From a bacterium (GTDB lineage Bacteria > Fidelibacterota > Marinisomatia > Marinisomatales > UBA1611): a stretch of DNA of 64,000 nt. The stretch lies in NCBI GenBank assembly GCA_004321745.1, contig SGYO01000001.1:1-64000 (forward strand), given 5' to 3'. Positions 18,380 through 37,207 of this stretch are shown here, piece by piece; position 1 is the stretch's first letter; each line of letters starts with the position of its first letter. The notes below the pieces were generated by a model that ran no database searches, was not told where the DNA came from, and saw only the letters and a list, made by a program, of their open reading frames with translations. Both the position numbers and the translations under genes were made by a program.

Positions 18380-18427
18380 ATTACATAAAATTATATACAC
18401 CTGTATCATTATTTTACATTCTCTTTC

Positions 18428-18454: not shown

Positions 18455-18551
18455 ATAATCACATCTTCTCCCTTCTCCTTTCCTACACTTATAAATTACT
18501 TTTAATTTATTTATTGTCGATAAATTACTTTTTTGCATCTTTTTTGATTTT

Positions 18552-18568
18552 TTGGCACGCCATTTGTT
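18552..18568 (+). promoter_or_regulatory. sigma-54 (-24/-12) promoter of pilin paralogue 2 and the pilin array
   Basis: TTGGCACGCCATTTGTT fits the -24 element exactly (TTGGCACG). It keeps the GG-N10-G(C/T) spacing, with GT replacing GC at -12. The predicted start near 18578 leaves a leader of about 34 nt. Because the element lies where a longer reading frame could begin with TTG, it also rules out that upstream start. Confidence 0.78.
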
Positions 18569-18611
18569 ATATATAGGCAACTATAAACAATTTTTTAAAA
18601 AGGTAAATAAA

Positions 18612-19313: not shown

Positions 19314-19344
19314 GATATTAGAAAGATAGAAAAGGAAAATTAAA

Positions 19345-19776: not shown

Positions 19777-19805
19777 TAAATAGAGAATAATTTTACCAGG
19801 AGTAA

Positions 19806-20294: not shown

Positions 20295-20324
20295 TAAAAT
20301 TTTATATACAGAAAGGAAATAATA

Positions 20325-20822
20325 ATGAGTAGATTAAAATCTAAAGGCTTCACTCTTGTAGAACTTATAATTGTAATGGTTTTACTTGGCATATTAGCAG
20401 CTGTTGCAGTCCCTAGAATGTCTCAAAGTATTATGGCGGGTGAAGAGGCTGCGGAGCAGAAATTTCTAGCAAACATGATTAGTGCTATTGAAGTGCAAGC
20501 TAATGATCAGTTTGTTCGAAATTCTCGCAAGCAATATACAGTTGATCCTTTTGATGCACTAGATAAATATCCAAGTAGAGATTCTAATGGCGAAGGTTGG
20601 TGGACAGAAAACCGAAGCGATGGTAATGATTGTTGCGATAGTAGAGGGCGAGAATATCAAAGATCTACTATCGAAATTAGGCATAGGAGAAATGATGGAT
20701 CTGAATACACCTGGAACTACCAAACTGTGGGCCCTAGATATCGCAGAAATAATAATGAAGAGTACATTGAGCAAGGAGAATATTCAATATTTGGTCCTGG
20801 CTTTAATGGACTAACCTATTAA
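20325..20822 (+). CDS. type IV pilin-like protein, array copy C
   Basis: 165 residues. Leader of 8 residues, then FTLVELIIVMVLLGILAAVAVP with Glu+5. It is most similar to copy D, the adjacent gene, throughout: MSQSIMAGEEAAEQKFLA, NGEGWWTE, HRRNDGSEYTWNY and the end GPGFNGLTY. A pair of adjacent cysteines (GNDCCDSR) lies in the globular loop, and D also has a CC pair but at another loop. An AAAGGAAA site precedes the ATG. It is a recent tandem duplicate of D or the reverse. Confidence 0.88.
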   Translation: MSRLKSKGFTLVELIIVMVLLGILAAVAVPRMSQSIMAGEEAAEQKFLANMISAIEVQANDQFVRNSRKQYTVDPFDALDKYPSRDSNGEGWWTENRSDGNDCCDSRGREYQRSTIEIRHRRNDGSEYTWNYQTVGPRYRRNNNEEYIEQGEYSIFGPGFNGLTY

Positions 20823-20844
20823 TGTTTAATTGAGGAGATAGATT

Positions 20845-21345
20845 ATGAAGAATTTACATTCTAAAGGTTTCACACTAGTGGAACTAATAATTGTAATGGT
20901 TTTACTCGGCATTTTAGCAGCTGTTGCTGTACCCAGAATGTCACAAAGCATAGTAGCTGCCGAGGAAGCAGCTGAGCAAAAGTTTCTAGCTAGTATGATT
21001 AGCGCAATTGAAATTTATGCAGCTGATGAATTCGTTCGAAATTCAGTTAAACGATATCCTGATTTCGATTTTGGACAAGGTCCTTTTGCTGTCCTTGACA
21101 AAATTCCTACTAGATCATCAAACGGTGAAGGTTGGTGGGTTGAATATCACGGAAATTGGGATGATGGTAATGGTAGATTAGGTCAACATTTTAGAATCAA
21201 ACACAGAAGAAATGATGGCAACGAGTACGAGTGGAATTACAGAACTGTAAATCCTTACATGAATTGCTGTTTAGAAGGCAGAAATTACCAAGAGCAAGGT
21301 TCATATTTGATCGATGGCCCGGGTTTTGATGGCCAAACTTATTGA
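20845..21345 (+). CDS. type IV pilin-like protein, array copy D
   Basis: 166 residues, leader of 8 residues, then the same FTLVELIIVMVLLGILAAVAVP helix as copy C and the next segment MSQSIVAAEEAAEQKFLA. The globular part shares NGEGWWVE, HRRNDGNEYEWNY and the GPGFDGQTY end with C. The region between is reorganised, with a CC pair (MNCCLEG) placed after the HRRNDG block instead of before it. It is preceded by GAGGAGA. The duplicate is tandem and recent, with divergence concentrated in surface loops. Confidence 0.88.
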   Translation: MKNLHSKGFTLVELIIVMVLLGILAAVAVPRMSQSIVAAEEAAEQKFLASMISAIEIYAADEFVRNSVKRYPDFDFGQGPFAVLDKIPTRSSNGEGWWVEYHGNWDDGNGRLGQHFRIKHRRNDGNEYEWNYRTVNPYMNCCLEGRNYQEQGSYLIDGPGFDGQTY

Positions 21346-21371
21346 TCAATATTTTTTAATATTCCGCGTTC

Positions 21372-21776
21372 ATGAAAAAAATATTAAATGAAGGATTTAG
21401 CTTGGTAGAATTAATTATAGTCATGGTATTAATAGGAATACTAGCAGCTGTTGCTGTTCCTAGAATGAGTAACACCATTAATTCAGGGGAAGAAGCATCA
21501 GAAAATGGAGTATTAGCAGCCCTTGAATCTGCAGTTGAAATGTATGCAATGGATCAGGTTGTTGAAAATTCTTCAAGAAGCTATCCTTACAACCCTTTTG
21601 ATCACATGGAAAAAGTGCCTCAGGGTTATACAGGTGAAAACAGTGTATTAGATGAGGATGGGGAATGGACTTTTGAAAATGGCCAGTGGATTGCTCATCA
21701 GAGAAACGATAACAGAAGATATAAATGGTCATATAACTCTAATACTGGTCAATTTGGAGACAGAGTTGCTTATTAG
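21372..21776 (+). CDS. type IV pilin-like protein, array copy E
   Basis: 134 residues, leader MKKILNEG then FSLVELIIVMVLIGILAAVAVP. The globular part has YPYNPFDHMEKVPQGYT, GEWTFENG, IAHQRNDNRR and YKWSYNSNTGQ. It pairs best with copy F. Unlike its neighbours it has no evident Shine-Dalgarno sequence before the ATG; an all-AT hairpin (21348-21363) occupies that stretch. Its translation may depend on ribosomes arriving from copy D or be low. Confidence 0.86.
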   Translation: MKKILNEGFSLVELIIVMVLIGILAAVAVPRMSNTINSGEEASENGVLAALESAVEMYAMDQVVENSSRSYPYNPFDHMEKVPQGYTGENSVLDEDGEWTFENGQWIAHQRNDNRRYKWSYNSNTGQFGDRVAY

Positions 21777-21793
21777 CTGGAGAAAAATTAATT

Positions 21794-22213
21794 ATGAATT
21801 CAAAACTACAAAAAGAAAGTTTATCAATGTACGCATCTAGAAAATTAAAAGAGGGTTTTACGCTAGTAGAGTTGATCATTGTAATGGTCATACTAGGAAT
21901 AATGGCAGCCGTTGCAGTCCCAAGAATGGGCAACATAATTTCCAAGTCATCAGAAGCAGCTGAGGATGCTATTCTTGCACAACTTGAGTCAGCAGCGGAA
22001 ATTAAGGCACTTGATAATGTCTTGCTTACAGGCTACAAAACCTACCCTGAAAATCCATTTACTGAGCTAGAAAAAACCCCCTCTGGATACACAAATGGCA
22101 ACGATTCTGGTTTAGATGATGCATGGTGGTTTACAGCGAATAAAGTTTACCACAGAAGAAATGGAAATGTTTATTTTTGGGATTACAACCCTATAAATGG
22201 CGAGATAAATTAA
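21794..22213 (+). CDS. type IV pilin-like protein, array copy F, with long leader
   Basis: 139 residues from the ATG at 21794, supported by GGAGAA just upstream. This gives a 21-residue leader, twice that of its neighbours; a second in-frame ATG at 21827 would give a 10-residue leader. Mature start FTLVELIIVMVILGIMAAVAVP with Glu+5. The globular domain has YPENPFTELEKTPSGYT, WWFTANK, YHRRNGNVYFWDYNPINGE. It is closest to copy E. Confidence 0.86.
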   Translation: MNSKLQKESLSMYASRKLKEGFTLVELIIVMVILGIMAAVAVPRMGNIISKSSEAAEDAILAQLESAAEIKALDNVLLTGYKTYPENPFTELEKTPSGYTNGNDSGLDDAWWFTANKVYHRRNGNVYFWDYNPINGEIN

Positions 22214-22236
22214 TAATTAAAAAATGAGGCAATGAA

Positions 22237-22719
22237 ATGCAACATATGAAAAATAAAAACGGTTTTACAATTATTGAACTTATAATGGTGATGATCATTA
22301 TAGGCGTGCTAGCCGCAGTAGCTATTCCTAGGTTTCAGGATATTGTTATCGAGAGTGAAGTTGCCGTAGAGCAAAGGATACTACAAACTATAAGCGATGG
22401 CCTAGAGACATATGCTAGAGAAAGGTACGTAGCAAACGGAGTGCGTTCATGGCCAGAAAATCCTTTTGTAGCTCTTTCTAAACTCCCTCCAGACTATGAC
22501 GCAGATAATTTTGTATTAACTAATATGAAAGATAGAGACTGGATTTTTACCGGTAATGGCAACAATGAGGCTTACAACAATACCATAGCCCATTTAAGGA
22601 AATCAGATAGTATTGCTGTATGGAAATATGATCCAAATACTGGTGAAGTTGAATATTCAGGTGCTCCATTTAGCCCAGTAAATGTTTTACATAGAGTAAA
22701 TGCTACTGGTGGTAACTAA
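22237..22719 (+). CDS. type IV pilin-like protein, array copy G
   Basis: 160 residues; leader MQHMKNKNG, then FTIIELIMVMIIIGVLAAVAIP. The globular part has SWPENPFVALSKLPPDY, DWIFTGNGNNEAY, IAHLRKSDSIAVWKYDPNTGE and a proline-containing end (APFSPVN). It matches copy B in order and spacing, although six genes separate copies B and H and four lie between B and G. A GAGG site precedes the ATG. No cysteine is present. Confidence 0.87.
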   Translation: MQHMKNKNGFTIIELIMVMIIIGVLAAVAIPRFQDIVIESEVAVEQRILQTISDGLETYARERYVANGVRSWPENPFVALSKLPPDYDADNFVLTNMKDRDWIFTGNGNNEAYNNTIAHLRKSDSIAVWKYDPNTGEVEYSGAPFSPVNVLHRVNATGGN

Positions 22720-22747
22720 AAATATTATAAAAAAGGAATTATTTATC

Positions 22748-23239
22748 ATGAAGAATAGACAGTCAAATGGGTTTACACTTATAGAATTAATAATGGTTAT
22801 GATAATTTTAGGAGTATTAGCAGCTGTTGCAATACCTAGGTATCTAGAAACTATTCAAAAATCAGAAGTATCTGCAGAAGATGCTGTAATTGACAGAATA
22901 TGTGTAGCATTAGAAAATTTTGCTCAACATAAAATGTTGACAGAGGGAAGAAGATATTGGCCAGAAAATCCTTTTGATGCATTAGAAACTGTTCCACAAA
23001 CCTATACTAAAGATGGTAACAACGCAGACACAGATAATGAATGGACTTTTGTAAATTTTTACACACCTGATGACAATGCAGAAGTTTCCGGTAGAATAAC
23101 TCATCAAAGAGCTGATAATACGAGATGGCAATGGACCTACAATGCAGGTATCAATCATGGTACTGATGGTGATGTAACGGGTAGTTTATTTAGACGAACA
23201 GAACTTGGCACTGCGGGAACTGAAATCCGATTTCAATAA
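22748..23239 (+). CDS. type IV pilin-like protein, array copy H
   Basis: 163 residues from the ATG at 22748, which follows AAAAAGGAATT. A further upstream in-frame start at 22700 lies inside copy G and would give an implausible leader. Mature start FTLIELIMVMIILGVLAAVAIP. The globular part has YWPENPFDALETVPQTY, EWTFVNFY, SGRITHQRADNTRWQW and GSLFRRTELG. The GRITHQRADN block is identical to that of copy A. It is the last gene before the terminator. Confidence 0.87.
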   Translation: MKNRQSNGFTLIELIMVMIILGVLAAVAIPRYLETIQKSEVSAEDAVIDRICVALENFAQHKMLTEGRRYWPENPFDALETVPQTYTKDGNNADTDNEWTFVNFYTPDDNAEVSGRITHQRADNTRWQWTYNAGINHGTDGDVTGSLFRRTELGTAGTEIRFQ

Positions 23240-23273
23240 ACAATAGTTGAAATTTAGTTTTTATTTTATACTT

Positions 23274-23310
23274 AAGGCTTCGCTGATCTAGCGAGGCCTT
23301 TGTAATTTTT
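23274..23310 (+). terminator. rho-independent terminator after the pilin array
   Basis: AAGGC(T)TCGCT pairs with AGCGA(G)GCCTT around loop GATCT, with one T-G wobble, followed by a T-rich stretch (TTTGTAATTTTT). It ends the pilin-array transcript 8 bp before the next gene. Partial read-through into the minor-pilin operon is possible. Confidence 0.8.
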
Positions 23311-23317
23311 GGAGTAA

Positions 23318-23785
23318 ATGTTGTCAAAAAAATACAATTCTAAAAGTGGTGTTACAATGGTTGAGCTTGTTATTGTCTTAGCGATAATGGGCATTTTGGC
23401 GGTAACCGTAATACCAATGTATAGTCAAATGCAAGCTAAGTCTCAGTTCACTAGAAACAGAGCCAATATGGAAATTATTAAAGACGCTTTTTTAAATCAT
23501 TTTTATCATACATATTCTATGGGCACCCCTGCAGTACCCACTCCTCCAGACAGCTTAATGACGGATGAGTGGTGTAATACACCAATGGACTCAACAAAAA
23601 GCTCTAAAACACCAAATGACCTTTTTGGAACAGGTGAAGTTCCAAAAAATTCTAATAATAATCCTTTTTTATACAGGAGCTGGATTGAGACAAAGAGCGA
23701 TGGCAGGCAAGATAGAATAATAATGATTAAAGATACTGACCCAGATAGTCCGTCTTTTGGGGAACATGAAACTGTCATAATCTAA
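23318..23785 (+). CDS. prepilin-like protein (GspG/PilE-like minor pilin)
   Basis: 155 residues behind a GGAG site. The 11-residue leader ends at Gly, then VTMVELVIVLAIMGILAVTVIP with Glu+5; Val at +1 is unusual. The globular part begins with a helix containing RANMEIIKDAFLNHFYH, then a proline-rich loop (GTPAVPTPP) and an end rich in charged residues (KSDGRQDRIIMIKDTDPDS). It lacks the WPxNPF and HQRxDN motifs of the array and is therefore a different subgroup. It opens the minor-pilin operon. Confidence 0.82.
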   Translation: MLSKKYNSKSGVTMVELVIVLAIMGILAVTVIPMYSQMQAKSQFTRNRANMEIIKDAFLNHFYHTYSMGTPAVPTPPDSLMTDEWCNTPMDSTKSSKTPNDLFGTGEVPKNSNNNPFLYRSWIETKSDGRQDRIIMIKDTDPDSPSFGEHETVII

Positions 23786-23824
23786 TTATTATTTTTTATA
23801 GCTAGACTTAGATTCAGCTAGGTT

Positions 23825-24322
23825 ATGAAAAAAATAAAGTACTCGAAGCCTCTTTCATTGTTAAATCAAAAAGGTTTCTCATTAATTGAACTTATTATTA
23901 TTTTAGTTATAATTGGCATAATGATAGCTGCCTCTTCCTCCAGACTAAAAGATATTACTACTAACGCGAGAGTCGGAGCTTCAATAAATCAAATTACAGG
24001 AGATATTGACCAAGCAAAAACAATTTCCATGAGCATGCGATCACAAATACAAATTATTTTTAATCAAAATAATGAAACATATACGATATACAAAGATGGA
24101 ATCTTATATAATGATTTTCCAGGAAGTGAAAATGGTATAGTAAATCTTTTGGGGGATGATAATAATGCTGACGTAGATATAACGAGTGTGAGCCTAAATG
24201 GTTCAAATACCCTCACTTTTGACAAGTGGGGTAACTGCCTACAAAGTGGTACTATAGTTTTAAACAATGACCGCCAAATTCAAATAAAAAATCTTACTGG
24301 CCATTGGGAGATAATTAATTAA
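23825..24322 (+). CDS. GspH/FimT-like minor pilin
   Basis: 165 residues. Leader of 17 residues, then FSLIELIIILVIIGIMIAASS with Glu+5. The downstream pattern, an alpha helix (INQITGDIDQAKTISM) followed by QIQIIFNQNNETYTIYKDG and a C-terminal LTFDKWGNCLQSGTIVL, matches the GspH/FimT fold (a helix, then a beta-rich domain with a G-x-x-x-x-G-T-I ending). GspH belongs to the quaternary minor-pilin complex that primes pilus assembly. Its stop overlaps the next start (TAATG). Confidence 0.82.
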   Translation: MKKIKYSKPLSLLNQKGFSLIELIIILVIIGIMIAASSSRLKDITTNARVGASINQITGDIDQAKTISMSMRSQIQIIFNQNNETYTIYKDGILYNDFPGSENGIVNLLGDDNNADVDITSVSLNGSNTLTFDKWGNCLQSGTIVLNNDRQIQIKNLTGHWEIIN

Positions 24323-24732
24323 TGAAAGAAAATAAATTTTCAAAAGGCTTTGCACTAGTAGAAATTGTGGTTGTTACTTTGCTCCTTGGAGGTGCTTTCA
24401 TTGTTTTCATAGAAGCACTAAATCAAACAAAAGTAATGCAAGTAAAATCGGAAATACGTACAATGCAAACAGCGCTATTAAATAGTAAAATCAATCAATT
24501 ACGCAGTGCTCCTTTTTCATCAATTTTTGCTATAAATAATTTTTTAGAGTTTCCCAATAATCCAGGATACTATTATAAAATAATTGTAAGACACACTGAC
24601 CAAACTTTTACTGAAACTTATGATAACACTACTACTGATTTCAAATTAATTACTATAGAAATAAAACATGGTTTAAACGACAATACGGGTACAATCATTA
24701 GTGATACTTTTGTTATTTCTAATATTATCTAG
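24322..24732 (+). CDS. GspI/PilV-like minor pilin
   Basis: 136 residues. Leader MKENKFSKG, then FALVEIVVVTLLLGGAFIVF with Glu+5. FALVE with a short, small globular domain, and its place between GspH- and GspJ-like genes, fit GspI/PilV. A helix (ALNQTKVMQVKSEIRTMQTA) precedes a beta region with PGYYYKIIVRH. No distant feature is unusual. The start codon overlaps the previous stop. Confidence 0.8.
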   Translation: MKENKFSKGFALVEIVVVTLLLGGAFIVFIEALNQTKVMQVKSEIRTMQTALLNSKINQLRSAPFSSIFAINNFLEFPNNPGYYYKIIVRHTDQTFTETYDNTTTDFKLITIEIKHGLNDNTGTIISDTFVISNII

Positions 24733-24736
24733 TTAA

Positions 24737-25324
24737 ATGAAACACACCGGAAAAATAATTAATCTTTTAAAAAGTAATTCTAGAGGTTTTACATTAATTG
24801 AGCTGGTTTTGACAGTTATTGCAATTGGTATATTTGGAGCGATTACAGCAAATATTCTTGGTAACGCATCAAAAGTTTATGAATCCACTCTCAAAAAACA
24901 AAAATTTGTATCAGAAGCTAGGCATTCATTTTTTAGGCTAAATAGAGACTTTAACTTACAAACCTGGGCTATGAACGATGATATCAGTAATCCTAAATCA
25001 TTAAATATTGAAAGTGCAAATGGTTGGCAGTTGCAGTATGACCTTCAAACTAATAATAATTTGCGTTTGAACCTCATACAACACTCTAACCTCAGCCCTA
25101 CTTCTGAAGTACTTTCAAAAAATACACATTATCTATCATCAAATATATCATACTATGATAACCAAAATAACATCGTTAGTGATAGCTATAATTCAAGTAT
25201 CATTAATTTAGCAAAAATTAGAATCCTTTTTAATGATCCTACCAACGGGTATTCAATGAACATAGAAAGTTATGCTTATCCTTATAATTTCAAATTTGGT
25301 AAGCCAATGGATTACCATGATTAG
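24737..25324 (+). CDS. GspJ/PilW-like minor pilin
   Basis: 195 residues; leader of 17 residues, then FTLIELVLTVIAIGIFGAITANI with Glu+5. The helix SEARHSFFRLNRDFN is typical of GspJ/PilW (an R-x-x-R-D-F/I pattern). A mostly beta C-terminal domain follows. It overlaps the following gene by 8 bp, as expected for a stoichiometric minor-pilin set (H, I, J, K order). Confidence 0.82.
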   Translation: MKHTGKIINLLKSNSRGFTLIELVLTVIAIGIFGAITANILGNASKVYESTLKKQKFVSEARHSFFRLNRDFNLQTWAMNDDISNPKSLNIESANGWQLQYDLQTNNNLRLNLIQHSNLSPTSEVLSKNTHYLSSNISYYDNQNNIVSDSYNSSIINLAKIRILFNDPTNGYSMNIESYAYPYNFKFGKPMDYHD

Positions 25325-27761
25325 ATTAAAAAATATTTTGAATGTAAAATATTTTCAATCTTCCAATGATGGTGTGATTTTGATATCTATGTCAATAGGT
25401 ATATTTCTAATAATTAGTGTTTTTACTTTTTTTCTGATGAAACTTGTGGTCAAAGAGCATAATATGTCCATGTTGCATACTTTGGATATTAAAACTCGCA
25501 ATCTTTCACATTCTGCATTAGAAAGGGGAATATTTCAATTCAAAAATTATAGAAATATTACTCAACAATTTGGAAATTTAAATAATGGTGAATATAATAT
25601 TTCATATAATGGGGTAAATGATGAAAACAATCAACCTCTCCCCTATTCTCACTATACAATGTTAGAAGCAAAAGCTGAAATAAATGAATCAAAACGGAAT
25701 ACTAGAATTTTTATGTCTTCCTTCCCTGCTGGTTTTAACCCTGCATTTTTTGGCGAAAATTTGAATAATGTTCCTGTTAATAGTATTATTAATGTAAACG
25801 GAGGGCAATTAATAAAGAATAATGGGAGTTTATATTATAATGGATCTTTGATTCAAAACGATAAAATAGTAGAAAAAATGCCCTCATTTAATAATATTTA
25901 TTCAAGTGAAATCAGTTGGACAGAAAATAATGTTCAACCAAACACTTCAAATGCTGGTTCAAATCCAAACAATAAATATTTAAATTTTGATGGGAATGAT
26001 TATGTAAGAGTTAATTACACCAATACTACCACAACTACAAATACAATAACAGTTCCTGGCTCTTATTACGATGAGGTTATTACTTTTGAAGATATGGGCG
26101 TTTCTGGCTGGAAGCAAATTAGTAACGGCTACAGAGGAATGAATTGGAATTACAGATTCTACGCATTAAATGCAAATAATTACACAAATTCTGGTTATTA
26201 CATAGCACGAAATAGTGGAGGAATAGTTGCTTATAATGCGTGGAATGAAAATCCAGTTTGGTTTGAAACACAAAATCAATCAACATTTACTCTCAAAGGT
26301 ATGTGGATGGCTTCTGCTTGGGTTGGATCGCAAAGTGTTACTATAAGAGGAATTCACCCTAATAATAGCTACACAGATAAAGTTTTTACTATAAGTAGAT
26401 ATTCTAAATCTTGGCTAAATACAAATATACCTAATGTGAAAAAAGTAGAAATCAGAAGAGGTTCTTCATGGTTTGCAGCAGATGACATAACTATTACAAG
26501 GCAAAACCCTCCTACAACTCAAACAACAACAACAACAACAACAACAACAATTTTACCAAAGTATAATGAAACAAGAACTATTACCGTTTGGGTCTACCCA
26601 TCAGATGACCATAACACTGGAGGAGGTATAATCACAACTGGTACTGGTGATTGTACAGGTAAAATGTTTGGGATAGGCAGAAGTAATGGCAAATTGTTTT
26701 TTTGGGGCGGTTGTAAAGATTGGGTATCAAATTTATCCGTCCCCAAAAATCAGTGGTCCTTCATTGCTATAAGGTATAATGGCAGTAAGGTTAGAGCATA
26801 TGTGAATGACAACTGGGAAGAGACAAACCTAAATGGCTTCAATACTCAAATGAGTGAATTGTTTATTGGTGGAGAGACAACAAATAATGGTTCATCATAT
26901 CGCAATTATTTCAGAGGTGGAATAGATGAAGTTGCTATCTGGAACGAAGCATTAACCCATAATGAAATACTAGCATTATATAATGATGGTTCGGGGTTAA
27001 ATGCCTCAGTTAACTATGGCAATTATTTATCAAAATCAAACCTTGTGGGCTACTGGAAGTTTAATGAGGGCAACGGTAACACCATTACAGATGCTAGTGG
27101 TAAAGGCAAAAATGGAACTATATACGGAGCATTATGGCAAACTGGAAGCCACTCACAGCCTCAAGTTGCACCACTAAAATTTAGTTCAAATACTCAGCTT
27201 AACTTAGATTCACCTTTTTGCGGTTCAGATCACACGTCGCTATGTGTAAATAATAAAATCGCGGTGAATGAAGATATTATTTTTGAAAATACGGACATAA
27301 CAGGTTCAGGTATTATAGTCTCAACTGGTAAAATCGTAATTAATCAAAATAGTAATATTAATGGGGGAATTACATTAATTTCAAAAAATATAGAAATTAA
27401 TAATTGTTCTCTAGGAGATTTTGAGTTGTTTAATAGTTCTGAAGGCCCAATAATAATCTACGTTGAAGATGGAGGGTCTATTTCTAATTCAAATAATATT
27501 TCAGGATTAATCATAAACTTTGATAATAATAATTCAGGAAATTTTTCAATTAGTAATTCTAACATATATGGTGCGTTACTCAACTATGGTTTAAATTTTG
27601 AGATAATTAATAACACAAGTATAGTTGGCTCAGTTGTATCGAATTACCTCATAACTATAAACGATGGGTCTTCCATTACAAAAGGAAATCTCCCTTCATT
27701 CTATGGAACTAATTTTGGATTATCACCTTCCGTCATACCAGGAAGCTATTTAGAATATTAA
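25317..27761 (+). CDS. GspK/PilX-like tip pilin carrying LamG and inserted beta-sandwich domains
   Basis: 814 residues from the ATG at 25317; an earlier start at 25272 lies inside the GspJ-like gene and would disrupt the leader. The 19-residue leader ends in Gly, then VILISMSIGIFLIISVFTF, with no Glu+5, as in the tip pseudopilin GspK. A LamG/concanavalin-like domain begins at YLNFDGNDYVRV (about 220-231) and resumes at TITVWVYPSDD (about 419-560). Between its halves sits another domain (about 250-395, GMNWNYRFYALN...WFAADDITIT), flanked by Thr-rich linkers. A beta-helix-like region follows (about 640-800). MSHA MshQ also has LamG. It is a probable pilus-tip adhesin. Confidence 0.82.
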   Translation: MIRLKNILNVKYFQSSNDGVILISMSIGIFLIISVFTFFLMKLVVKEHNMSMLHTLDIKTRNLSHSALERGIFQFKNYRNITQQFGNLNNGEYNISYNGVNDENNQPLPYSHYTMLEAKAEINESKRNTRIFMSSFPAGFNPAFFGENLNNVPVNSIINVNGGQLIKNNGSLYYNGSLIQNDKIVEKMPSFNNIYSSEISWTENNVQPNTSNAGSNPNNKYLNFDGNDYVRVNYTNTTTTTNTITVPGSYYDEVITFEDMGVSGWKQISNGYRGMNWNYRFYALNANNYTNSGYYIARNSGGIVAYNAWNENPVWFETQNQSTFTLKGMWMASAWVGSQSVTIRGIHPNNSYTDKVFTISRYSKSWLNTNIPNVKKVEIRRGSSWFAADDITITRQNPPTTQTTTTTTTTTILPKYNETRTITVWVYPSDDHNTGGGIITTGTGDCTGKMFGIGRSNGKLFFWGGCKDWVSNLSVPKNQWSFIAIRYNGSKVRAYVNDNWEETNLNGFNTQMSELFIGGETTNNGSSYRNYFRGGIDEVAIWNEALTHNEILALYNDGSGLNASVNYGNYLSKSNLVGYWKFNEGNGNTITDASGKGKNGTIYGALWQTGSHSQPQVAPLKFSSNTQLNLDSPFCGSDHTSLCVNNKIAVNEDIIFENTDITGSGIIVSTGKIVINQNSNINGGITLISKNIEINNCSLGDFELFNSSEGPIIIYVEDGGSISNSNNISGLIINFDNNNSGNFSISNSNIYGALLNYGLNFEIINNTSIVGSVVSNYLITINDGSSITKGNLPSFYGTNFGLSPSVIPGSYLEY
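26521..26550 (+). repeat. (ACA)n trinucleotide microsatellite coding poly-threonine
   Basis: About ten copies of an AAC/ACA triplet code the threonine linker between the inserted domain and the rest of the LamG domain. Slippage would change linker length without a frameshift. Confidence 0.85.
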
Positions 27762-28214: not shown

Positions 28215-28625
28215 ATGATATATATAATCAGTATTGGAGGAATTTCCGTATTTTTTGGGCTTTTACTTTTAGTTGCACCCAATACAATTCTATCAATTGA
28301 GAGAAGAGCAAATAAAATATACATGACCGACCCAACATTTATGCAATATCGAGTTCCATTTGGTATAGGGCTTTTTTTTGCATCGATTTTTATAATTTAT
28401 TCATTAATAAATGAATCTACAGAATACCTGATTATAATTGGTGTACTAGCCTTAGTGTTTAGTTTAATGTTATTACTAACTCCAAAAGCTATATTTTCAT
28501 TAGAAAGACAAGCAAACAGAGTTTACATGACTGATCCAACATTTATGAAATATCGAATCCCATTTGGCATGTTTCTATTACTGTCAGGTGCTTTTATGAT
28601 ATATTCAAGCATTGGTTATTTTTAA
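28215..28625 (+). CDS. small membrane protein made of two tandem repeats
   Basis: 136 residues with four probable membrane helices. The protein is an internal duplication: RANKIYMTDPTFMQYRVPFG in the first half matches RANRVYMTDPTFMKYRIPFG-like residues (about 97-116) in the second, each preceded and followed by a hydrophobic helix. The repeat places the conserved YMTDPTF loop twice between helices. No family is recognised. The ribosome-binding site is weak. It lies 20 bp before the ExeA-PilM-PilN fusion gene. Confidence 0.65.
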   Translation: MIYIISIGGISVFFGLLLLVAPNTILSIERRANKIYMTDPTFMQYRVPFGIGLFFASIFIIYSLINESTEYLIIIGVLALVFSLMLLLTPKAIFSLERQANRVYMTDPTFMKYRIPFGMFLLLSGAFMIYSSIGYF

Positions 28626-28645: not shown

Positions 28646-31528
28646 TTGGAATTATTTGAATCAATTGGCTTAAAAGCTGATCCTTTCACCACATCACCAA
28701 ACCCTGATTTATTCTTTCCTGCAAAAGAACATAAACAATGTTTAGAAGGACTAGAATTAGCAATTAGAATGCGCAGAGGCCTTTCAGTTGTTCGGGGTGG
28801 AATTGGAACTGGGAAAACGACAATAAGTAGAAAGCTAATTCAGAATTTTTCATCGGATGATGATGTAAAATTTGAATTTTATCCTGTGCTTGATCCAAAA
28901 TTTGAATCTGAATTAGTATTGCTACAACACTTAGTTGATTTATTCGGAATTGAAGAGGATGCTGGAAAGTCAGTTATAGACTGCAGAAACCAAATTGAAC
29001 ATCACTTGATTAAGGCTGGAGTTGAGGATGGACGAGTCTTAGTTTTAGTTATTGACGAAGGTCAAAATTTAAGAGGGGAATTCCTTGATGTTTTCAGAAC
29101 ATTGTTAAATTTTGAAACAGATGATTTCAAACTTTTACAGTTAATTATTTTTGGACAACCAGAAATGACATCTATAATACACGAGTATCCTAATTTTGAA
29201 GATAGGATAACGTTTAATTTTGAATTAGGACCATTGGATTTCGAATCAGCCCAAGGTATTATTAAACATCGTTTATCAGAAAAAGGTGGTGGCAGCCGCG
29301 AATATTTTACTACAGATGCAATAAAGGCAATACACAATCATACGCAGGGATATCCAAGAAAGATAAATAAGCTTTGTCATCAACTTTTGCTTAACATGAT
29401 TAGTGCAGAGCAAGAAGTTGTTTCTTTAAGTATTGTAGAAAATACCATTGGAGGTAAAGTTACTGAGGGCCTTATTGAAAAGCAGGAAGAACCAGTCGAA
29501 GCAGAAGATGCTATTCAAGAGAAAGAAGAGGAACCAGAAGAAAAAAAGGATGTAGCTGTTAATAAGCTATTTGATATTTTACGTAAAGGAGGTAAAAAAG
29601 ATAGCGAAAGTGGTAAAATTGGCGAAACCGTTTCTGAAGACGATATAATTGGTGATCTTTATGGCGATTCGAATGAAGATGATGAAGATGATGAATTAGA
29701 AGAAGAAATTATTGAAGATGATGAGCCAACTAAATGGTACCAAAGAAGAAAATCAAGGCTCAAAAAAAATATTGGTACTTATCCTACAAACATCGTTTCT
29801 CCTTCACTAAAAAAAGAAAAATTGCTTCTTGGCGTAGCTATGGATCAAGGACATATCTACACAGCTTTGATTCAAGACAAAGGTGGAATTAAATCTATTA
29901 TAGGTGCCGATATATTTTCTGCCACAAAAGCAAAGTTAGACGCAAAAAGAAATCCTACTGGTTTTTCAGTAGCTATGGGGAAAGCTTATGATCAACTGTT
30001 ATCAAAACTTGAAAAGAAAAAAAATAAAATTCCAAATGGAATAATTAAAAAACTCCAATCTGGAGTTCCAATATCATTTACAATTAACAATACAGCAAGC
30101 TTATTAAAAACGGTACTCGTCCCTCCAGAAAATAAAAAAGAACGGAAAATGATTATTGAATATGATGCTAAGAAAAATCTTCCTTTTAACTCAGATGATA
30201 TAATTTTTGATTCAATAGAGTTAGAGCAAGGAAAGAATATCATCGGAGTAGCTAATGCTGATTATATGGACTCACCCGCTCAAACATTATCAGATAAAAA
30301 GTGGGATATAAGATTATGGCCCCCAGCTGCTCAAACAGTATTAAATGCATTTAAATGGAATTATTCCAACAAAAAACATGATATTATACTTATTATCCAT
30401 ATTGGTGAAATTGAAAGCTTTTTACTTGGCTACAATCAAGGGTATCCAGATGCCATAATCCCTTTAGATCTTGGAATTCAAAACCTCACTGATGCATGGA
30501 AATATAGGTCATCAGCGTCAAAAACAAAATGGGATAAAAGAGATTATTGTAGAGTCCCCCCTTCAATTTTAAAATCAGAATTAAAAGATAATTCCACAAG
30601 TAAACAGGTTAAACCTCAAGATGATGCAATAAGACCAGTTATAGAAAGTTGGGATCAAGAGTTGGAGAGAGCATTAAATAGCATGGCTCAATCATTTCCT
30701 GTTGATAATGTTTCAGAAATTTTTCTAAGCGGCTGTGCTGAGGAAGTACTATTTCTCGATGAATACCTTGAAACTCAACTGGATGCAAAAGTGCAATTTT
30801 TAGATCCTTTCAATAACGTAGCTTTTTTCCCCGATGAGGAAGAGAGAGAAAATTTTGAAATTTCAAAAACAGCAATGACTACTGCTGTTGGTGCTGCATT
30901 AAACATTGATAAATCAATAAACTTATTACCTGAAATGTTTAAAGAGGCTGAAAAATTTAGAATTGGTAATAAATTTAGTATTCCTGCAGCCGCAGCAATT
31001 TTATTAGGTGTTATTTCGCTATCTGGATGGACAAGTATAAATCATGAAGAAATGAAAACTAAATTAAACTCAATGAAAACTCAAGCTGCCAGCGTCGCAC
31101 CTATAAAAACTAAATATGAAAGAGTTTCATCTGAAAAGAATACCATTGTCGCACAACTAGATATTTTACTAAAGGAATCAAAACTTTCAAACTTATCCAT
31201 AAGTATAATGCGATTTTTCAGCTATAACACGCCTAAAGAAATAACCTTAGATTTAATATCTTTTCAAAGAGGTTGGGAGCGTGGAGATTGGATTCATGTT
31301 GGGAATTCATTAGAAAAAGTTATAACAATTGTTGATGAAGAAAAAGATTTTGCCCGCGTCACGGGCGCAATCACAGCGAACCCCGCTCTTAAAGAAAGAT
31401 ATTTTTCTAATTTCATTACACAAGTTGAGAATTCTGGACTATTCAAAAAAATTGATGTAATAAACAAAAAGACTACAAGCGGTATGGACATAGATAATAT
31501 GACATTTGAACTAAAGTGTGAATTATAG
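28646..31528 (+). CDS. ExeA/MshM ATPase fused to PilM and PilN
   Basis: 960 residues from a TTG start behind AGAGG; the first residues ELFESIGLKADPF align with the normal start of ExeA/GspA proteins. Residues 1-270 form an AAA+ ATPase with Walker A GGIGTGKTT (51-59) and Walker B VLVIDEGQNL (133-142). An acidic linker (about 280-370) leads to a PilM-like actin-fold domain (about 392-770; LLLGVAMDQG and LFLSGCA-type motifs). A membrane helix at 778-795 and a PilN-like periplasmic part follow (796-960). In other systems these are three separate proteins. PilO follows after 6 bp. Confidence 0.84.
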   Translation: MELFESIGLKADPFTTSPNPDLFFPAKEHKQCLEGLELAIRMRRGLSVVRGGIGTGKTTISRKLIQNFSSDDDVKFEFYPVLDPKFESELVLLQHLVDLFGIEEDAGKSVIDCRNQIEHHLIKAGVEDGRVLVLVIDEGQNLRGEFLDVFRTLLNFETDDFKLLQLIIFGQPEMTSIIHEYPNFEDRITFNFELGPLDFESAQGIIKHRLSEKGGGSREYFTTDAIKAIHNHTQGYPRKINKLCHQLLLNMISAEQEVVSLSIVENTIGGKVTEGLIEKQEEPVEAEDAIQEKEEEPEEKKDVAVNKLFDILRKGGKKDSESGKIGETVSEDDIIGDLYGDSNEDDEDDELEEEIIEDDEPTKWYQRRKSRLKKNIGTYPTNIVSPSLKKEKLLLGVAMDQGHIYTALIQDKGGIKSIIGADIFSATKAKLDAKRNPTGFSVAMGKAYDQLLSKLEKKKNKIPNGIIKKLQSGVPISFTINNTASLLKTVLVPPENKKERKMIIEYDAKKNLPFNSDDIIFDSIELEQGKNIIGVANADYMDSPAQTLSDKKWDIRLWPPAAQTVLNAFKWNYSNKKHDIILIIHIGEIESFLLGYNQGYPDAIIPLDLGIQNLTDAWKYRSSASKTKWDKRDYCRVPPSILKSELKDNSTSKQVKPQDDAIRPVIESWDQELERALNSMAQSFPVDNVSEIFLSGCAEEVLFLDEYLETQLDAKVQFLDPFNNVAFFPDEEERENFEISKTAMTTAVGAALNIDKSINLLPEMFKEAEKFRIGNKFSIPAAAAILLGVISLSGWTSINHEEMKTKLNSMKTQAASVAPIKTKYERVSSEKNTIVAQLDILLKESKLSNLSISIMRFFSYNTPKEITLDLISFQRGWERGDWIHVGNSLEKVITIVDEEKDFARVTGAITANPALKERYFSNFITQVENSGLFKKIDVINKKTTSGMDIDNMTFELKCEL

Positions 31529-31534
31529 AAAGTA

Positions 31535-32338
31535 ATGGATAAACAAAGAAATCTTTTCATTGGAACAATCGCATTAGTTTTGTTATCGTGTGCAGGTTGG
31601 TACTTTGCTTACTTTAACGATCTAAATAGATCTTTAAGCAAAATGAGCTCGGATTACAACCGCTTAAAGAATGAAAAAAATAAATATAACCAGATACAAA
31701 ACAAATTTCCTGCTATTGAGAAAGAATGGAAAGAACTAAAAACTGATTTGTCAAACCTTATTAACAAGATCCCAAGTGATGGCCAGTTTGATAATGTCAC
31801 TAAAATGCTGTTCAGTTTAATGGAAAAAAATAAGTTAGCAGTAGACAATTTTAACCCCTCCCTGGCACCACTCGATGAAAAACAAATAGTTGATCCAGAA
31901 AATCAGCAACCAATCATCATAGAGAAATACCCTATAGATGTTGAGCTTAGAGGAAATTTTATAGATTTTGGTAATTTTTTAGACCAGTTGGCATTTTCAA
32001 ATTATTATCTAACAATTGGGAACATTCAAATTTCTCAAAACCAATACCTTGAGGGTGAACAAAAAATATCATTTATATCTTATGTGTTTACTAAAAACAG
32101 TGCTAATAACATAAGTACAAATGGGATTAACAATAACTTAGTTGAATCAAACTCAACAAATTTAATTAACTCAAACCTTACTGATAAAGATATTATAAAT
32201 GAGGCAATTCAAACTACAGGCGCAGCGAGTTTGATTGATATTGTAAAGATAATAAAGCATATTAAAGAAAAGACAGGAAAAGATATAGATGAGAATCTTG
32301 CAATTTCTATTTTACAAGAAAGATTAAATAACCTATAG
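31535..32338 (+). CDS. pilO: PilO-like pilus alignment protein
   Basis: 267 residues. A short cytoplasmic N-terminus, one membrane helix (about residues 8-26) and a coiled-coil (LNRSLSKMSSDYNRLKNEK) precede a ferredoxin-like periplasmic domain with PSDGQFDNVTKMLFSLMEKNKL and GNFIDFGNFLDQLAF. This is the PilO layout. The C-terminal 60 residues are an Asn-rich linker and a helical end (IKHIKEKTGKDIDENLA) not typical of PilO. It partners the PilN part of the fused gene 6 bp upstream. Confidence 0.85.
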   Translation: MDKQRNLFIGTIALVLLSCAGWYFAYFNDLNRSLSKMSSDYNRLKNEKNKYNQIQNKFPAIEKEWKELKTDLSNLINKIPSDGQFDNVTKMLFSLMEKNKLAVDNFNPSLAPLDEKQIVDPENQQPIIIEKYPIDVELRGNFIDFGNFLDQLAFSNYYLTIGNIQISQNQYLEGEQKISFISYVFTKNSANNISTNGINNNLVESNSTNLINSNLTDKDIINEAIQTTGAASLIDIVKIIKHIKEKTGKDIDENLAISILQERLNNL

Positions 32339-32420: not shown

Positions 32421-32972
32421 ATGGTCGACATGACCCCTAGACTTAGAAATCTTTTAATTGGATTAGGAATCTCAGTTGCAATCATGATTGTTGATCAAGG
32501 AAGTAAGTCATCTGGCTCCAGTAATTCAAACTCCGCAAGAAAGGCAAAAATTCAAAAGCCTAAAAAAGTAGTTGCGCAAAATACTAATGCAAAAAGTAAT
32601 AGTTTATCCTCAATAAAAAGTCAATCTAAAATATCTAACAGGAGGAAATCAAGCTTGTCATCACAACTTGTGGGCTGGCAGAGAAATCCATTTAATAGTG
32701 TAGCTGTATCAAGTGAGGCAAATATAGAAGGAGCTTCAGTCAACACGGAAAAAGAGAAAGATATAGAAAAATCAATCCTTCTCAAAAATCTTGAAAGGTA
32801 TAATGTTGAAATCGTAGCTGAATTCAATAATGAAAAAATTGTCCTAATTGATAGCAGAAGATTTAGACAAGGTGAATATTTAAATGATGACATATTAATT
32901 GATAGAATTGAAAATGATCAAATTACATTTAGAAATGGTAGCACTACTGTTACAAGAAATGTTGGTAATTAA
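32421..32972 (+). CDS. pilP: PilP/GspC-like periplasmic connector
   Basis: 183 residues with an N-terminal membrane helix (about 9-25), a Ser/Lys/Asn-rich linker, a RNPF motif (residues 89-92) and a small beta-rich C-terminal domain (VEIVAEFNNEKIVLIDSRRF, then GEYLNDDILIDRI). This resembles the homology-region domain of PilP/GspC that binds the secretin N0 domain. It lacks a PilP lipobox, so GspC-like anchoring is more likely. The secretin ATG follows its stop directly. Confidence 0.72.
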   Translation: MVDMTPRLRNLLIGLGISVAIMIVDQGSKSSGSSNSNSARKAKIQKPKKVVAQNTNAKSNSLSSIKSQSKISNRRKSSLSSQLVGWQRNPFNSVAVSSEANIEGASVNTEKEKDIEKSILLKNLERYNVEIVAEFNNEKIVLIDSRRFRQGEYLNDDILIDRIENDQITFRNGSTTVTRNVGN

Positions 32973-34292
32973 ATGAATCGTAATCAATTCATATTATTAA
33001 TAATTCTCTTTAATAGTTTTCTATTTTGCCAGTGGAATGACCCCGCATATTCAAGAATATCAGAAAGCGAACAGGAAAGTGAGCGTTATAAATTAATGGA
33101 TAAAATGTCTATTAATTTGAAAGAGTCTGATATTCGAAATGTTTTAACTATGATTGGTGAGCTAACTGGTCTCAATATTGTTATTAGTCCAAACATTGAA
33201 GATACAATAACCGCAAACCTTGAAAATGTCACTGTTAAGGCAGCATTGGATGCTATTCTAAAACCAAACAATTACAGTTATTTCGTTCAAGATAACATTA
33301 TAATTGTAAAGGACTTAGATACTCAACTAATAGGTGAACTAGAGTCTGTAGTCATTCGATTAAAGTATATTAATTCTAATGATTTGCAAGCTCCCTTATC
33401 AACCATCTTAACCTCAAGAGGAACTGTTCAATCATTCCTCCCAGTAGCTTCAATGGCAGGGCAAACAGGACCTCCAAATATGGCCATTGTTTCAGATGTT
33501 CAGGAAAACATTCCTAGAGTATTAAGTATGGTCAAGCAGTTAGACAAACCAATAAAAAATATTAATATTGCTGTTAAATTTATAGAAACGCAATTAGACA
33601 CATCTAAATCTTACGGAGTTGACTGGACAAATAGCCCGGTACAATTAGGTGGCAATCCGAATGATACAATAAATTTCCCAATTAATTTAAATAATGTCAC
33701 TATCGCCACTTTAAACCCATCGCAGCTTACCTCCGCTTTAAAAGTTATGCAAGCAAGGGGGCGCAGTAAATTATTATCAAGTCCTCAAGTAACTACTCTT
33801 GATAATCACCAAGCTACTACTGAAGTATCAACAACGGTGTACATCGAAGGATTAAATTCAGGCGGTAATAATACAAGCTCAAATGCGCAAGGTAATACAG
33901 CAACTGGAATACCCGGGCTTGGATTATATGGAACTGCAAATACTGTCCAAGAAAAAGACATAGGTATTAAACTGCAAGTGACCCCTAGAATAAATGAAAA
34001 TAATATTATAACATTGCTCGTAGATGCAACAGTAGAGGCCCTTTTATCTGCTGCAGAAATATCAACAGATAAACCTAGATCTACAAAAAGGACCGTTACT
34101 ACACAAGTTTCTGTCTTTAATGGAGAAACCGTAATTATTGGCGGCCTTATTGCTGATAATATCATTAGAAATAAGAAATACGTACCTATACTGAGCGCTA
34201 TACCAGTTGTTGGCTATTTTTTCAAAACTACATCAGTCCAAAAAGAACAAAGAGAACTACTAATGTTTATCACGCCTACTGTATATGATTAA
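32973..34292 (+). CDS. pilQ: secretin outer-membrane channel (PilQ/MshL/GspD family)
   Basis: 439 residues, short for PilQ. Signal peptide (1-19), then an STN/N0 domain (MSINLKESDIRNVLTMIGEL, about 43-110), an N1 domain (VVIRLKYINSNDLQ) and the secretin core. The core ends with the conserved signatures VPILSAIPVVGYFFK and RELLMFITP. It forms the outer-membrane gate for the pilus. No AMIN domain or lipobox is seen, as in MshL-like secretins. It lies directly behind the PilP-like gene. Confidence 0.94.
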   Translation: MNRNQFILLIILFNSFLFCQWNDPAYSRISESEQESERYKLMDKMSINLKESDIRNVLTMIGELTGLNIVISPNIEDTITANLENVTVKAALDAILKPNNYSYFVQDNIIIVKDLDTQLIGELESVVIRLKYINSNDLQAPLSTILTSRGTVQSFLPVASMAGQTGPPNMAIVSDVQENIPRVLSMVKQLDKPIKNINIAVKFIETQLDTSKSYGVDWTNSPVQLGGNPNDTINFPINLNNVTIATLNPSQLTSALKVMQARGRSKLLSSPQVTTLDNHQATTEVSTTVYIEGLNSGGNNTSSNAQGNTATGIPGLGLYGTANTVQEKDIGIKLQVTPRINENNIITLLVDATVEALLSAAEISTDKPRSTKRTVTTQVSVFNGETVIIGGLIADNIIRNKKYVPILSAIPVVGYFFKTTSVQKEQRELLMFITPTVYD

Positions 34293-34303
34293 TTAGTTTG
34301 ACA

Positions 34304-37207
34304 ATGCAAAAAGATTATCCATATATCCTTATTTCTTTTGGAGTCGCATCTTTATTTATCATTTTGACATGGTTTGAACTTTATGATGGTGTAGAGAGCA
34401 AGCTCTTAGATATGAGATTTTTAAATCGTGGAAGGATTGAAACTAGGCAAGACATTGCTACTCTCGATATGGATGCAAAAAGCCTGCAGCAAATTGGTAG
34501 ATGGCCATGGAGCCGTGAAAAACACATTCCTTCTATTATGGCTGCAAAAGAGCATGGTATGGATGCTTTAGCATTTGATATTTTTTTTATCGAAAGACAA
34601 GAGCGCAAGCTTGAATATGATAATGTCTCAACAATTAATGACAGCGTATTAACAATTAAAGAGATTGAAGACCTTTTTCCAGATCCTGATATTGATTTGG
34701 CAAATGCAGCTGAAAAAGCAGGGAATATTTATTTCGGATATACATTTTTCCCTCAACCAGCAAAAAAAATGGCCGTTAGAAAACGAACCAAAGAAAAAGA
34801 TGTAAGATTGCAACTTCTTGATGACGGTAAATTTTTTAGAAAAATTGACCCTTCTAAGTTTGAAACCATTAATGATTTCTATGACATTGATCCTCCAGTT
34901 GATGAACTAATTAAATCAAGCAAAGGTACTTACTTTTTTCAAACTATAGCTGAGCCAGATGGCATTAGTAGAAGATATCCTCTTGTTGGAAAATATGAAG
35001 ACAAACTTTTTCCAAATGCAGCTTTAGCATTAGCACTTGACCACTATGGAGTAAGTTTTAGTGATGTTAAAATAGAGCCAGGTAAGTATTTATCTATCCC
35101 CCTCCCCTCTAAAGATGAATATGGTAGATCAACAATAGAAATACCAATAGATAAAAGAGGTCTTATGCAGGTGAACTGGGCTGGGCAATGGGAAGATATA
35201 GACGGTAATTTTGATTTCATACACTACCCCTACTGGGTTCTTAAAAAATTTAGAGATAGTGAATATGATAATTACGTACTAGCGGAGGTAAAAAAACTTG
35301 CTTACTCTGACCCAAGCTTACAAGGTGCAAAAAACTTAAAAGCTTTAATGAAAGCGTCCTTTAAACAAAAATTCGCAAGTAAAAAAGATGTAATAAAAAC
35401 AATTAGGCAACTTGGCATGGCAACACAAATGGAGTCATACATATCTAAAACAAAAAGCCTAGATACTGGGGAACAGTTTTTTGCAAGTATTAAAAGAAAA
35501 GCAAAGTATCCTCAGATAAAAATGTACAACGAAATAAAAAATGCTAATACTATAGCTAAAGAATTAAAAGTTAATCCTAATTCTAGCCTTGATAATTTAT
35601 TAATTAACCAAAAACTTGCCTTTGAAGCACCTATGAAAAATTACAGGATGAGCAGTTTTAGGAAGCTTAAGAAAGATGTAAAATCTTTATTAAAGACATC
35701 AAAAGATGAAGGCTATATAAAAATTTTAAAAAGGTCTTTAGTCGAAATATCACAACTTGAGAGAACATTTTTAATCGTTCAAAACTTAAATAAACACAAT
35801 ATTGTTGATGAACAAAGACCATTATTCTTCTGGCAAAATAAAGACCGAATCGTTGTTGGGAATGTTAAAAAGAATACAGCTAGAAGGATCGTTCCGTTTG
35901 AGTTTCATAAGAAAAAACTACTTTATGGCTTAACCGCTCCAGGTACTTCTGATTTAGGATCACAGCCATTTAACGGCAGTTATCCAATGGTTGGTCTTCA
36001 CGCTAATGCTTTGAATACAATTTTATCAGATATTTTTATAACAAGGACATCTAAAGCTGTAGTATCCTTAATCCTTTTAGCTTTAGCACTATTATTAGCA
36101 TTTGGAATTCAAAGACTTAGCCCCGCGATCGGTGGAGTTGCTGTTGGTGCATTAATATTGCTCTATATTTTAACTGCTTTTTGGGCTTTTACTAATTATT
36201 ATTTTTGGCTAGATCTATTTGCTCCTATCGCAACTATAGGTTTGGGGTATTTAGGCATAACCGTATATAACTACATTCAAGAAGAGAAAAACAAGCAATT
36301 TCTCAAATCATCCTTTGGAACCTACATTTCTCCTGAACTCATTGATGAAATGTACGATAGTGGTAAAGAACCCGAGCTTGGCGGTGAAGAGGGTTACCAC
36401 ACTGCTTTTTTCACTGATATTCAAAGTTTTTCAGCTTTCTCAGAAAAATTAACAGCTAGCGATCTAGTCAGCCTTTTAAATAATTATCTAACTGAAATGA
36501 CGGATATACTCATGGAGAATAATGGTACGCTAGATAAATACATTGGCGATGCAATTGTAGCATTTTATGGAGCTCCATTAGACTTAAAAAACCATGAGCT
36601 AATGGCATGCAGAACAGCGATAAAAATGCAGGAAAGGTTAGCTGTCCTTAGGGGTCAATGGCAACAAGAAGGTGATAGATGGCCTGAAATAGTACATAAC
36701 ATGCAAAATAGAATTGGCATCAATACTGGGAAGATGGTAACTGGCAATATGGGTTCTGAATCCAGAATGAATTACACTATGATGGGTGACACGGTAAATC
36801 TCGCAGCAAGACTGGAAAGTTCAGCTAAGCAATATGGTGTATACATTCAAATAGCTGATAGTACATATGAAGCAGTGAAAGATCAAATCGTTGTAAGAGC
36901 GCTTGATTTTGTCCGAGTAATGGGTAAAACCGAGCCTGTTAAAGTTTTCGAACTAATTTCTGAAAAGGACCAAGAACCTGAAATTTATAAAAAGATACTA
37001 CCTGTATTCCATGAAGGTTTAGAATATTACTTTAAACAAGACTGGGATAAAGCAATTGAGGCATTTCAAACAGCTGATGAGCTTGAAGAAATGTTTCCTG
37101 GAAGGAAAACAAACCCAAGCAGAGTTTACATACCCCGCTGCCAAAATTTTAAATCAAACCCTCCTGGTGATGATTGGGACGGTGTTTGGACTCAAACATC
37201 TAAGTAG
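34304..37207 (+). CDS. membrane adenylate cyclase with CHASE2 sensor
   Basis: About 967 residues; ATG at 34304 preferred over a TTG two codons upstream. One N-terminal helix and a long extracytoplasmic CHASE2-type region (about 30-580) are followed by three close membrane helices (about 586-664). A class III nucleotide cyclase domain follows (about 700-890). Metal-binding FTDIQSFS and DKYIGDAIVAFYG and the purine and ribose motifs GDTVNLAAR are intact; the Lys-Asp pair suggests ATP as substrate. It is cotranscribed with the secretin (12 bp). Making cAMP from an envelope signal could link pilus state to gene control. Confidence 0.88.
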   Translation: MQKDYPYILISFGVASLFIILTWFELYDGVESKLLDMRFLNRGRIETRQDIATLDMDAKSLQQIGRWPWSREKHIPSIMAAKEHGMDALAFDIFFIERQERKLEYDNVSTINDSVLTIKEIEDLFPDPDIDLANAAEKAGNIYFGYTFFPQPAKKMAVRKRTKEKDVRLQLLDDGKFFRKIDPSKFETINDFYDIDPPVDELIKSSKGTYFFQTIAEPDGISRRYPLVGKYEDKLFPNAALALALDHYGVSFSDVKIEPGKYLSIPLPSKDEYGRSTIEIPIDKRGLMQVNWAGQWEDIDGNFDFIHYPYWVLKKFRDSEYDNYVLAEVKKLAYSDPSLQGAKNLKALMKASFKQKFASKKDVIKTIRQLGMATQMESYISKTKSLDTGEQFFASIKRKAKYPQIKMYNEIKNANTIAKELKVNPNSSLDNLLINQKLAFEAPMKNYRMSSFRKLKKDVKSLLKTSKDEGYIKILKRSLVEISQLERTFLIVQNLNKHNIVDEQRPLFFWQNKDRIVVGNVKKNTARRIVPFEFHKKKLLYGLTAPGTSDLGSQPFNGSYPMVGLHANALNTILSDIFITRTSKAVVSLILLALALLLAFGIQRLSPAIGGVAVGALILLYILTAFWAFTNYYFWLDLFAPIATIGLGYLGITVYNYIQEEKNKQFLKSSFGTYISPELIDEMYDSGKEPELGGEEGYHTAFFTDIQSFSAFSEKLTASDLVSLLNNYLTEMTDILMENNGTLDKYIGDAIVAFYGAPLDLKNHELMACRTAIKMQERLAVLRGQWQQEGDRWPEIVHNMQNRIGINTGKMVTGNMGSESRMNYTMMGDTVNLAARLESSAKQYGVYIQIADSTYEAVKDQIVVRALDFVRVMGKTEPVKVFELISEKDQEPEIYKKILPVFHEGLEYYFKQDWDKAIEAFQTADELEEMFPGRKTNPSRVYIPRCQNFKSNPPGDDWDGVWTQTSK

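Follow-up and report, generated by a model that had tools for sequence, protein, structure and literature searches.

The window (the whole stretch of 64,000 nucleotides that was analysed) carries a pilus gene cluster at 11190–37207, encoding a prepilin peptidase, a PilB/MshE-type ATPase, an NtrC-type regulator, PilC, pilins, a LamG protein, the fusion protein with which this work is mainly concerned, PilO, a PilP-like protein, a secretin and a cyclase; all the features described below lie on the + strand. The PilB/MshE-like extension ATPase (11987–13666; TIGR02538, E 6e-170) bears an MshEN c-di-GMP-binding domain (NF053729, 44.2 bits against a cut-off of 38) and its gene adjoins that of the NtrC-type regulator. 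The inner-membrane platform protein PilC/GspF (15110–16363; TIGR02120, E 2.5e-88) is followed by about 14 pilin-like genes in tandem (17654–25324), recognized from the N_methyl domain (PF07963), present in five of the eight tested, and from the mutual similarity of several, and then by an 829-aa LamG/ConA-like surface protein (25272–27761; PF13385, E 9e-18) which occupies, as a conserved position, the place of MshQ. Directly upstream of the fusion gene lies a gene for a small membrane protein in which one unit occurs twice in tandem (28215–28625), assigned by synteny: it immediately precedes the ATPase in almost every fused locus and also in L083, an unfused locus described below, and lies near the ATPase in loci L089 and L090. 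Downstream of the fusion gene are PilO (31535–32338; PF04350, E 4e-9), a PilP/GspC/GspB-like periplasmic protein (32421–32972), assigned from weak T2SSB-like and SctD-like C-terminal matches and from its conserved position, and a secretin of the PilQ/GspD/MshL superfamily (32973–34292; PF00263, E 1e-40). Against the MshL equivalog model (TIGR02519) this secretin scores 102 bits (cut-off 250); the PilQ model scores higher, also below its cut-off, and the GspD equivalog cut-off is not reached either. A CHASE2 nucleotide cyclase (34298–37207; PF05226, PF00211 and synteny) ends the cluster, as it does in those loci of the window's family that have readable downstream sequence and in L083, which suggests that the machine is under cAMP or cGMP control. 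PilT was not found in the source genome (92% complete), where only matches to PilB, below the cut-off, were obtained, and we infer that the machine is MSHA-like and probably non-retracting.

The gene at 28646–31528 is one unbroken frame of 960 codons, running from a TTG start at 28646, with an AAGAGGT stretch about 10 nt upstream, to a stop codon at 31526–31528, and it was recovered unchanged when the whole source genome was checked. It is a real gene and encodes one protein of 960 aa, in which an ExeA/MshM-like AAA+ ATPase domain, a linker, a PilM domain, one membrane helix and a PilN-like part follow each other. An earlier note on this DNA, made from the sequence, had proposed just such an arrangement, with intact Walker motifs in the same frame as a PilM-like actin fold, an acidic linker and a single membrane helix, and in these respects it was right. 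The AAA+ domain (residues 1–272; 28646–29461) matches AAA_22 (PF13401; residues 42–177, E 1e-17) above the Pfam cut-off, and its best NCBIfam match is TIGR03015, the ExeA-like XrtA-associated ATPase family (residues 8–268, E 9e-51), with a score of 172.9 bits that lies below the equivalog cut-off of 324.5. Its motifs are Walker A (GGIGTGKTT, 51–59), Walker B (VLVIDE, 133–138), a sensor-like FGQPE (169–173), DRI (186–188) and GYPRKI (235–240), and the Walker A, Walker B, GQPE, DRI and GxPR motifs are kept in 20 fused and in the split homologues. The domain belongs with the ExeA/TnsC-like AAA+ proteins and not with the PilT/PilB family; plasmid matches, one of them annotated exeA, share about 31–34% identity with it over at least about 90% of its length, and GspA of Escherichia coli proved too divergent to serve as a yardstick. 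Beyond the ATPase, where ExeA has a membrane helix and a periplasmic domain that binds peptidoglycan, no such Pfam match was obtained, and this place is taken by PilM–PilN.

The linker (residues 273–376; 29462–29773), delimited by its composition and by comparison with the N-termini of the split genes, is predicted to be disordered and is indeed acidic (37 D/E among the 105 residues 272–376). The PilM-like actin-fold domain (residues 377–762; 29774–30931) matches PilM_2 (PF11104; residues 659–752, E 7.6e-10) with 38.7 bits against a cut-off of 27, and a profile of PilM–PilN homologues matches the solved PilM structures 3jc8 (E 7e-21) and 2ych (E 8e-10). The PilM model TIGR01175 gives 28.1 bits, below its cut-off of 133, and the Amuc_1101 PilM-like model (NF045709) matches residues 662–844, across the PilM/PilN junction (E 3.8e-17), with 62.3 bits, far below the equivalog cut-off of 650. 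At the end of the PilM part stands an INLLP motif of the PilN type (758–762), and the remainder of the protein (residues 763–960; 30932–31525) consists of the membrane helix, a coiled coil and a C-terminal alpha/beta domain, as judged from hydropathy and from a full-length profile match; the hydrophobic helix at 777–795 is the only one. PF05137 (PilN) is reached by 2 of the 17 fused homologues (best E 2.5e-4), the window protein itself giving no match, and the cytoplasmic GspL domain (PF05134) gives weak matches in 3 of the 17 (best E 0.027). The PilM–PilN region of the fusions aligns end to end with the split proteins by profile (100%, E 1e-40); when the PilN part was compared by profile to classical PilN and to E. 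coli HofN, no significant similarity emerged. The periplasmic PilN-like domain of the earlier note holds as a probable PilN, judged by its motif, its topology, its place in the chain and weak matches to PilN families, and is the least certain of the domain assignments.

A point absent from the earlier note is that the signature of ATP binding has disappeared from the PilM part. All three elements of the actin-type site (DIGxxxxK ... DIG ... GG) are gone in 17 of 17 fusions, the first being replaced by, for example, AMDQGHIY, the second DIG by HIG or NIG and GG, in nearly all, by SGx. The lysine lost with the first element is the counterpart of Lys-26 in Thermus PilM, a residue required for ATP binding by that protein, which links the motor ATPase PilF to the PilMNO platform (PMC6325625). 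As the site is missing also in six of nine split forms, its loss preceded the fusion and is not a consequence of it. Because the PilM fold no longer has a recognizable site of its own, the AAA+ domain is the only recognizable nucleotide site of the polypeptide.

Relatives and a phylum set of 245 genomes were searched for the same arrangement, as orthologues in other Neomarinimicrobiota had been suggested as a check. AAA+, PilM and PilN parts in one frame (936–1040 codons) were found in 17 species-level genomes, all from the window's own family (f1) and from at least eight genera; they make up 18 loci, one genome having two copies. Every genome of this family with a complete locus carries the fusion, the matches in other members being pieces cut by contig ends, and no ATPase was found as a separate gene within the family. 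Loci L002–L006, which come from another collection, include the single-cell genome AG-390-N21 with the fusion. Apparent fusion pieces in two other families, L085 (f8) and L102 (f16; almost identical to the window's genus), probably stem from contamination of the genomes concerned. Neither a second PilM nor a second ExeA-like ATPase is present in the 92% of the source genome available, in which the other PF11104 match is FtsA, upstream of FtsZ. Many relatives also possess a classical locus in which PilM, PilN, PilO, PilP and the secretin are encoded separately; in the fused family this is seen in L055 (2008–6184) and L054, where PilM has an intact DIG motif and no ATPase neighbour, and the source genome appears to be without such a locus.

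Outside the family the two halves are separate. In all 21 inspected loci, from 13 families, an ATPase gene of about 270–290 codons (open frames up to 347) is followed by a PilM–PilN gene (open frames of 651–1156 codons). The start of the second gene overlaps the stop of the first at 15 of the 21 junctions, 14 of them by 8 nt (ATGxxTGA type) and one by 11 nt; at the other six there are three in-frame pairs with one stop codon between, one gap of 14 nt and two of 510 nt. One substitution in any of the in-frame pairs (L086, L087 and L088) would suffice for an independent fusion to arise. One genome of family f3 contains a further copy of the pair (L039, 1–2650), whose PilM–PilN is broken into pieces of 141 and 628 aa by a frameshift or an assembly error. 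Locus L083, from a relative in the same taxonomic order, has the gene order of the window throughout (late, minor pilins, LamG protein, small membrane protein, ATPase, PilM–PilN, PilO, PilP, secretin, CHASE2 cyclase) and is unfused. Since the split state is found in all other families and in the closest outgroup, the gene pair is inferred to be ancestral in the phylum. In a tree of the ATPase domain the difference between fused and split forms requires one change, with support of 100/100 and in 100% of bootstrap trees, the distant paralogue L056 having been left out of this tree as its inclusion misplaced the root. In the PilM–PilN tree more changes of the fused label are required, solely owing to truncated contigs of the fused family that are scored there as unfused. 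Taken jointly, the architecture and its single origin we regard as close to certain.

The position of the join can be read from the linker, which contains the sequence AVNKLLDVLR at residues 303–313, within a conserved motif at 301–313 (29546–29584; consensus AxNKLLDVLR), with N306, K307, L308 and L312 invariant across the 17 fusions. Unfused PilM–PilN proteins begin with a short charged stretch followed by LATNRLLDLLRA or a variant of it. The motif of the linker is equivalent to the N-terminus of the unfused protein, and this places the join between the end of the ATPase (about residue 272) and about residue 300. By pattern search 43 of 46 ATPase-linked (fused or adjacent) PilM–PilN frames carry the motif, and of the three that do not one has a variant spelling (L079, VKLLETLR) and two are truncated or frame-broken (L039 and L080). 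It is absent from all 31 free-standing frames of PilM or PilM-like proteins whose upstream sequence could be read, a set that includes one FtsA (L081) and one short fragment (L088), and from which the one match in this class, L085, was not counted as it is a cut fusion fragment; it should be noted that the association is confounded with ancestry, the free-standing PilMs all belonging to another PilM clade. As the motif tracks linkage to the ATPase, the helix of about 11 residues is a candidate docking element, and in the split relatives it is likely that the ATPase docks on it. An AlphaFold model of residues 1–317, built from a six-sequence alignment and of low confidence (pLDDT 48.7), places a helix at 302–314 between unstructured stretches; a model of the full-length fusion from a six-sequence alignment reached a pLDDT of 35.7. 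A separate PilM–PilN made by read-through or from an internal start was considered and rejected, since comparison of the fused homologues revealed no conserved start codon with a Shine–Dalgarno sequence in the linker. Proteolysis after translation could still separate the two halves.

From these results we favour, with a probability of roughly 60%, a derived functional fusion by which the ATPase is anchored to the cytoplasmic PilM/N/O ring of a machine that is MSHA-like and lacks PilT. The ancestral pair would have consisted of a stand-alone ExeA/MshM-like ATPase followed by a PilM–PilN protein whose unstructured tail started in the short helix LATNRLLDLLR. Sequences and tree show that the gene for the ATPase was fused in frame with this N-terminal tail at the base of one family. 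By homology and from the operon, the product would be an inner-membrane protein whose PilM/PilN part forms, together with PilO, the cytoplasmic and periplasmic alignment ring, with the ATPase hanging beneath it on a flexible acidic tether of some 110–200 residues. Oligomerization or switching of the ATPase, driven by nucleotide, may then govern how the ring is assembled or how it is coupled to PilB and the secretin. Where the two genes are split, the short helix at the N-terminus of PilM would serve to dock the ATPase. To this mechanism of a tethered ATPase we give slightly better than even odds. That the ATPase would stand in a 1:1 ratio to the ring, as the earlier note had it, follows from the fusion itself, and both its location on the ring and its activity there are suggested by homology and gene order. 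A more far-reaching and tentative extension, which we hold to be rather doubtful, is that the nucleotide switch of the ring was exchanged, the ATP site of PilM having decayed while an ExeA/MshM-type ATPase, docked by the helix and in one family fused, came to drive ring assembly or gating.

Among the alternatives the one that survives best is a neutral fusion, in which the stop codon between two neighbours was lost, the halves work as before and equal dosage is the only gain. The 8-nt overlap at most split loci and the single in-frame stop at three of them mean that the mutational step was small, and the anatomy of the protein is compatible with this explanation; retention of the fusion, the absence of a kept internal start and invariance of the motif do not prove a new function. 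The same features nevertheless count to some extent against it, since there has been no reversal across at least eight genera, no alternative internal start was kept and the linker motif is invariant, and we consider neutrality possible rather than probable. A second main alternative, in our view only slightly less likely, is that the ATPase plays the part of ExeA, driving assembly and insertion of the secretin with the PilP/GspB-like protein at 32421–32972, and that the fusion only brings it to the site. The likeness of the domain to ExeA is in keeping with this, as is the presence of PilO, PilP (with its weak T2SSB-like C-terminus) and the secretin next in the operon, and in Aeromonas and Vibrio the secretin does not assemble fully without ExeA/EpsA (PMC6532946). 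However, the parts with which ExeA acts on the cell wall (membrane helix and peptidoglycan-binding domain) are missing, and the partner gene conserved across the phylum is PilM–PilN rather than a GspB gene. The failure to find PilT might further suggest that the AAA+ domain is a second motor replacing it in retraction or extension, but the genome is incomplete, the domain is of the ExeA/TnsC-like and not the PilT/PilB kind, and its tether leads to PilM rather than to PilC, so that this proposal is very improbable. Lastly, an assembly chimera of three genes, the error that the earlier note had named as what would refute its claim, can be dismissed, as the same frame and gene order recur in 17 independent genomes and the single-cell genome, and purifying selection is strong on the AAA, PilM and PilN segments (dN/dS about 0.02–0.07, rough ratios because dS is saturated).

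The fusion here and the neighbouring, usually overlapping genes of the relatives suggest that the inner ring of the machine is what the ExeA-type ATPase, itself little understood, acts on directly. MshM is an MSHA-specific component which is mandatory in models of the MSH system (PMC6668835) and whose function is stated to be unknown (PMC9815625); the fusion and the overlapping pair point to the cytoplasmic PilM/PilN ring as the partner of ATPases of this type. What is understood of ExeA concerns mainly its periplasmic part. For ATPases of the MshM/ExeA type a helix of about 11 residues is now pinpointed as a docking candidate, and we have a pilus-type machine in which PilM, to judge from its motifs, apparently does not bind ATP and has an AAA+ ATPase attached. 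Were the exchange of the nucleotide switch to be borne out, PilM/PilN would be a direct partner of MshM/ExeA-type ATPases more widely.

The comparison with known systems shows where the novelty lies. Closest in the same phylum are the split pairs, which have the same two proteins in the same order and the same motif at the N-terminus of PilM–PilN, but encoded by two genes, usually with an 8-nt overlap. The XrtA/PEP-CTERM ATPase shares the family match (TIGR03015), to which the window protein scores under the cut-off, and no exosortase or EPS genes were seen beside the fusion gene. MshM resembles the ATPase described here in being a small ATPase beside an MSH-like set (an MshE-type ATPase with a c-di-GMP domain, a LamG protein and a secretin); to our knowledge it occurs only as a separate gene, the likeness being one of type and gene context. 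In GspL and in the Amuc_1101 family of Verrucomicrobiota (Akkermansia) a single chain likewise unites an actin-like cytoplasmic domain with one membrane helix and a periplasmic part of the PilN kind; unlike the window protein, neither has an AAA+ domain. ExeA/GspA of type II secretion shares the ExeA-type AAA+ domain, the catalytic motifs being intact here too, and in EpsAB of Vibrio vulnificus, an ExeA–ExeB fusion (PMC6532946), ExeA is, as here, joined to another component of the machine, whereas the window protein has neither a peptidoglycan-binding domain nor an ExeB part and its partner is PilM–PilN. No paper describing a fusion of ExeA/MshM with PilM was found among open-access full texts. 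The statement of the earlier note that these are otherwise separate proteins, or at most a GspL-type fusion, calls for two corrections, in that PilM–PilN is one gene already in the split loci, and so not unusual in this phylum, and that EpsAB provides a precedent for ExeA: PilM–PilN in one chain and ExeA fused to a machine component were both known, and the new step is the N-terminal ATPase only.
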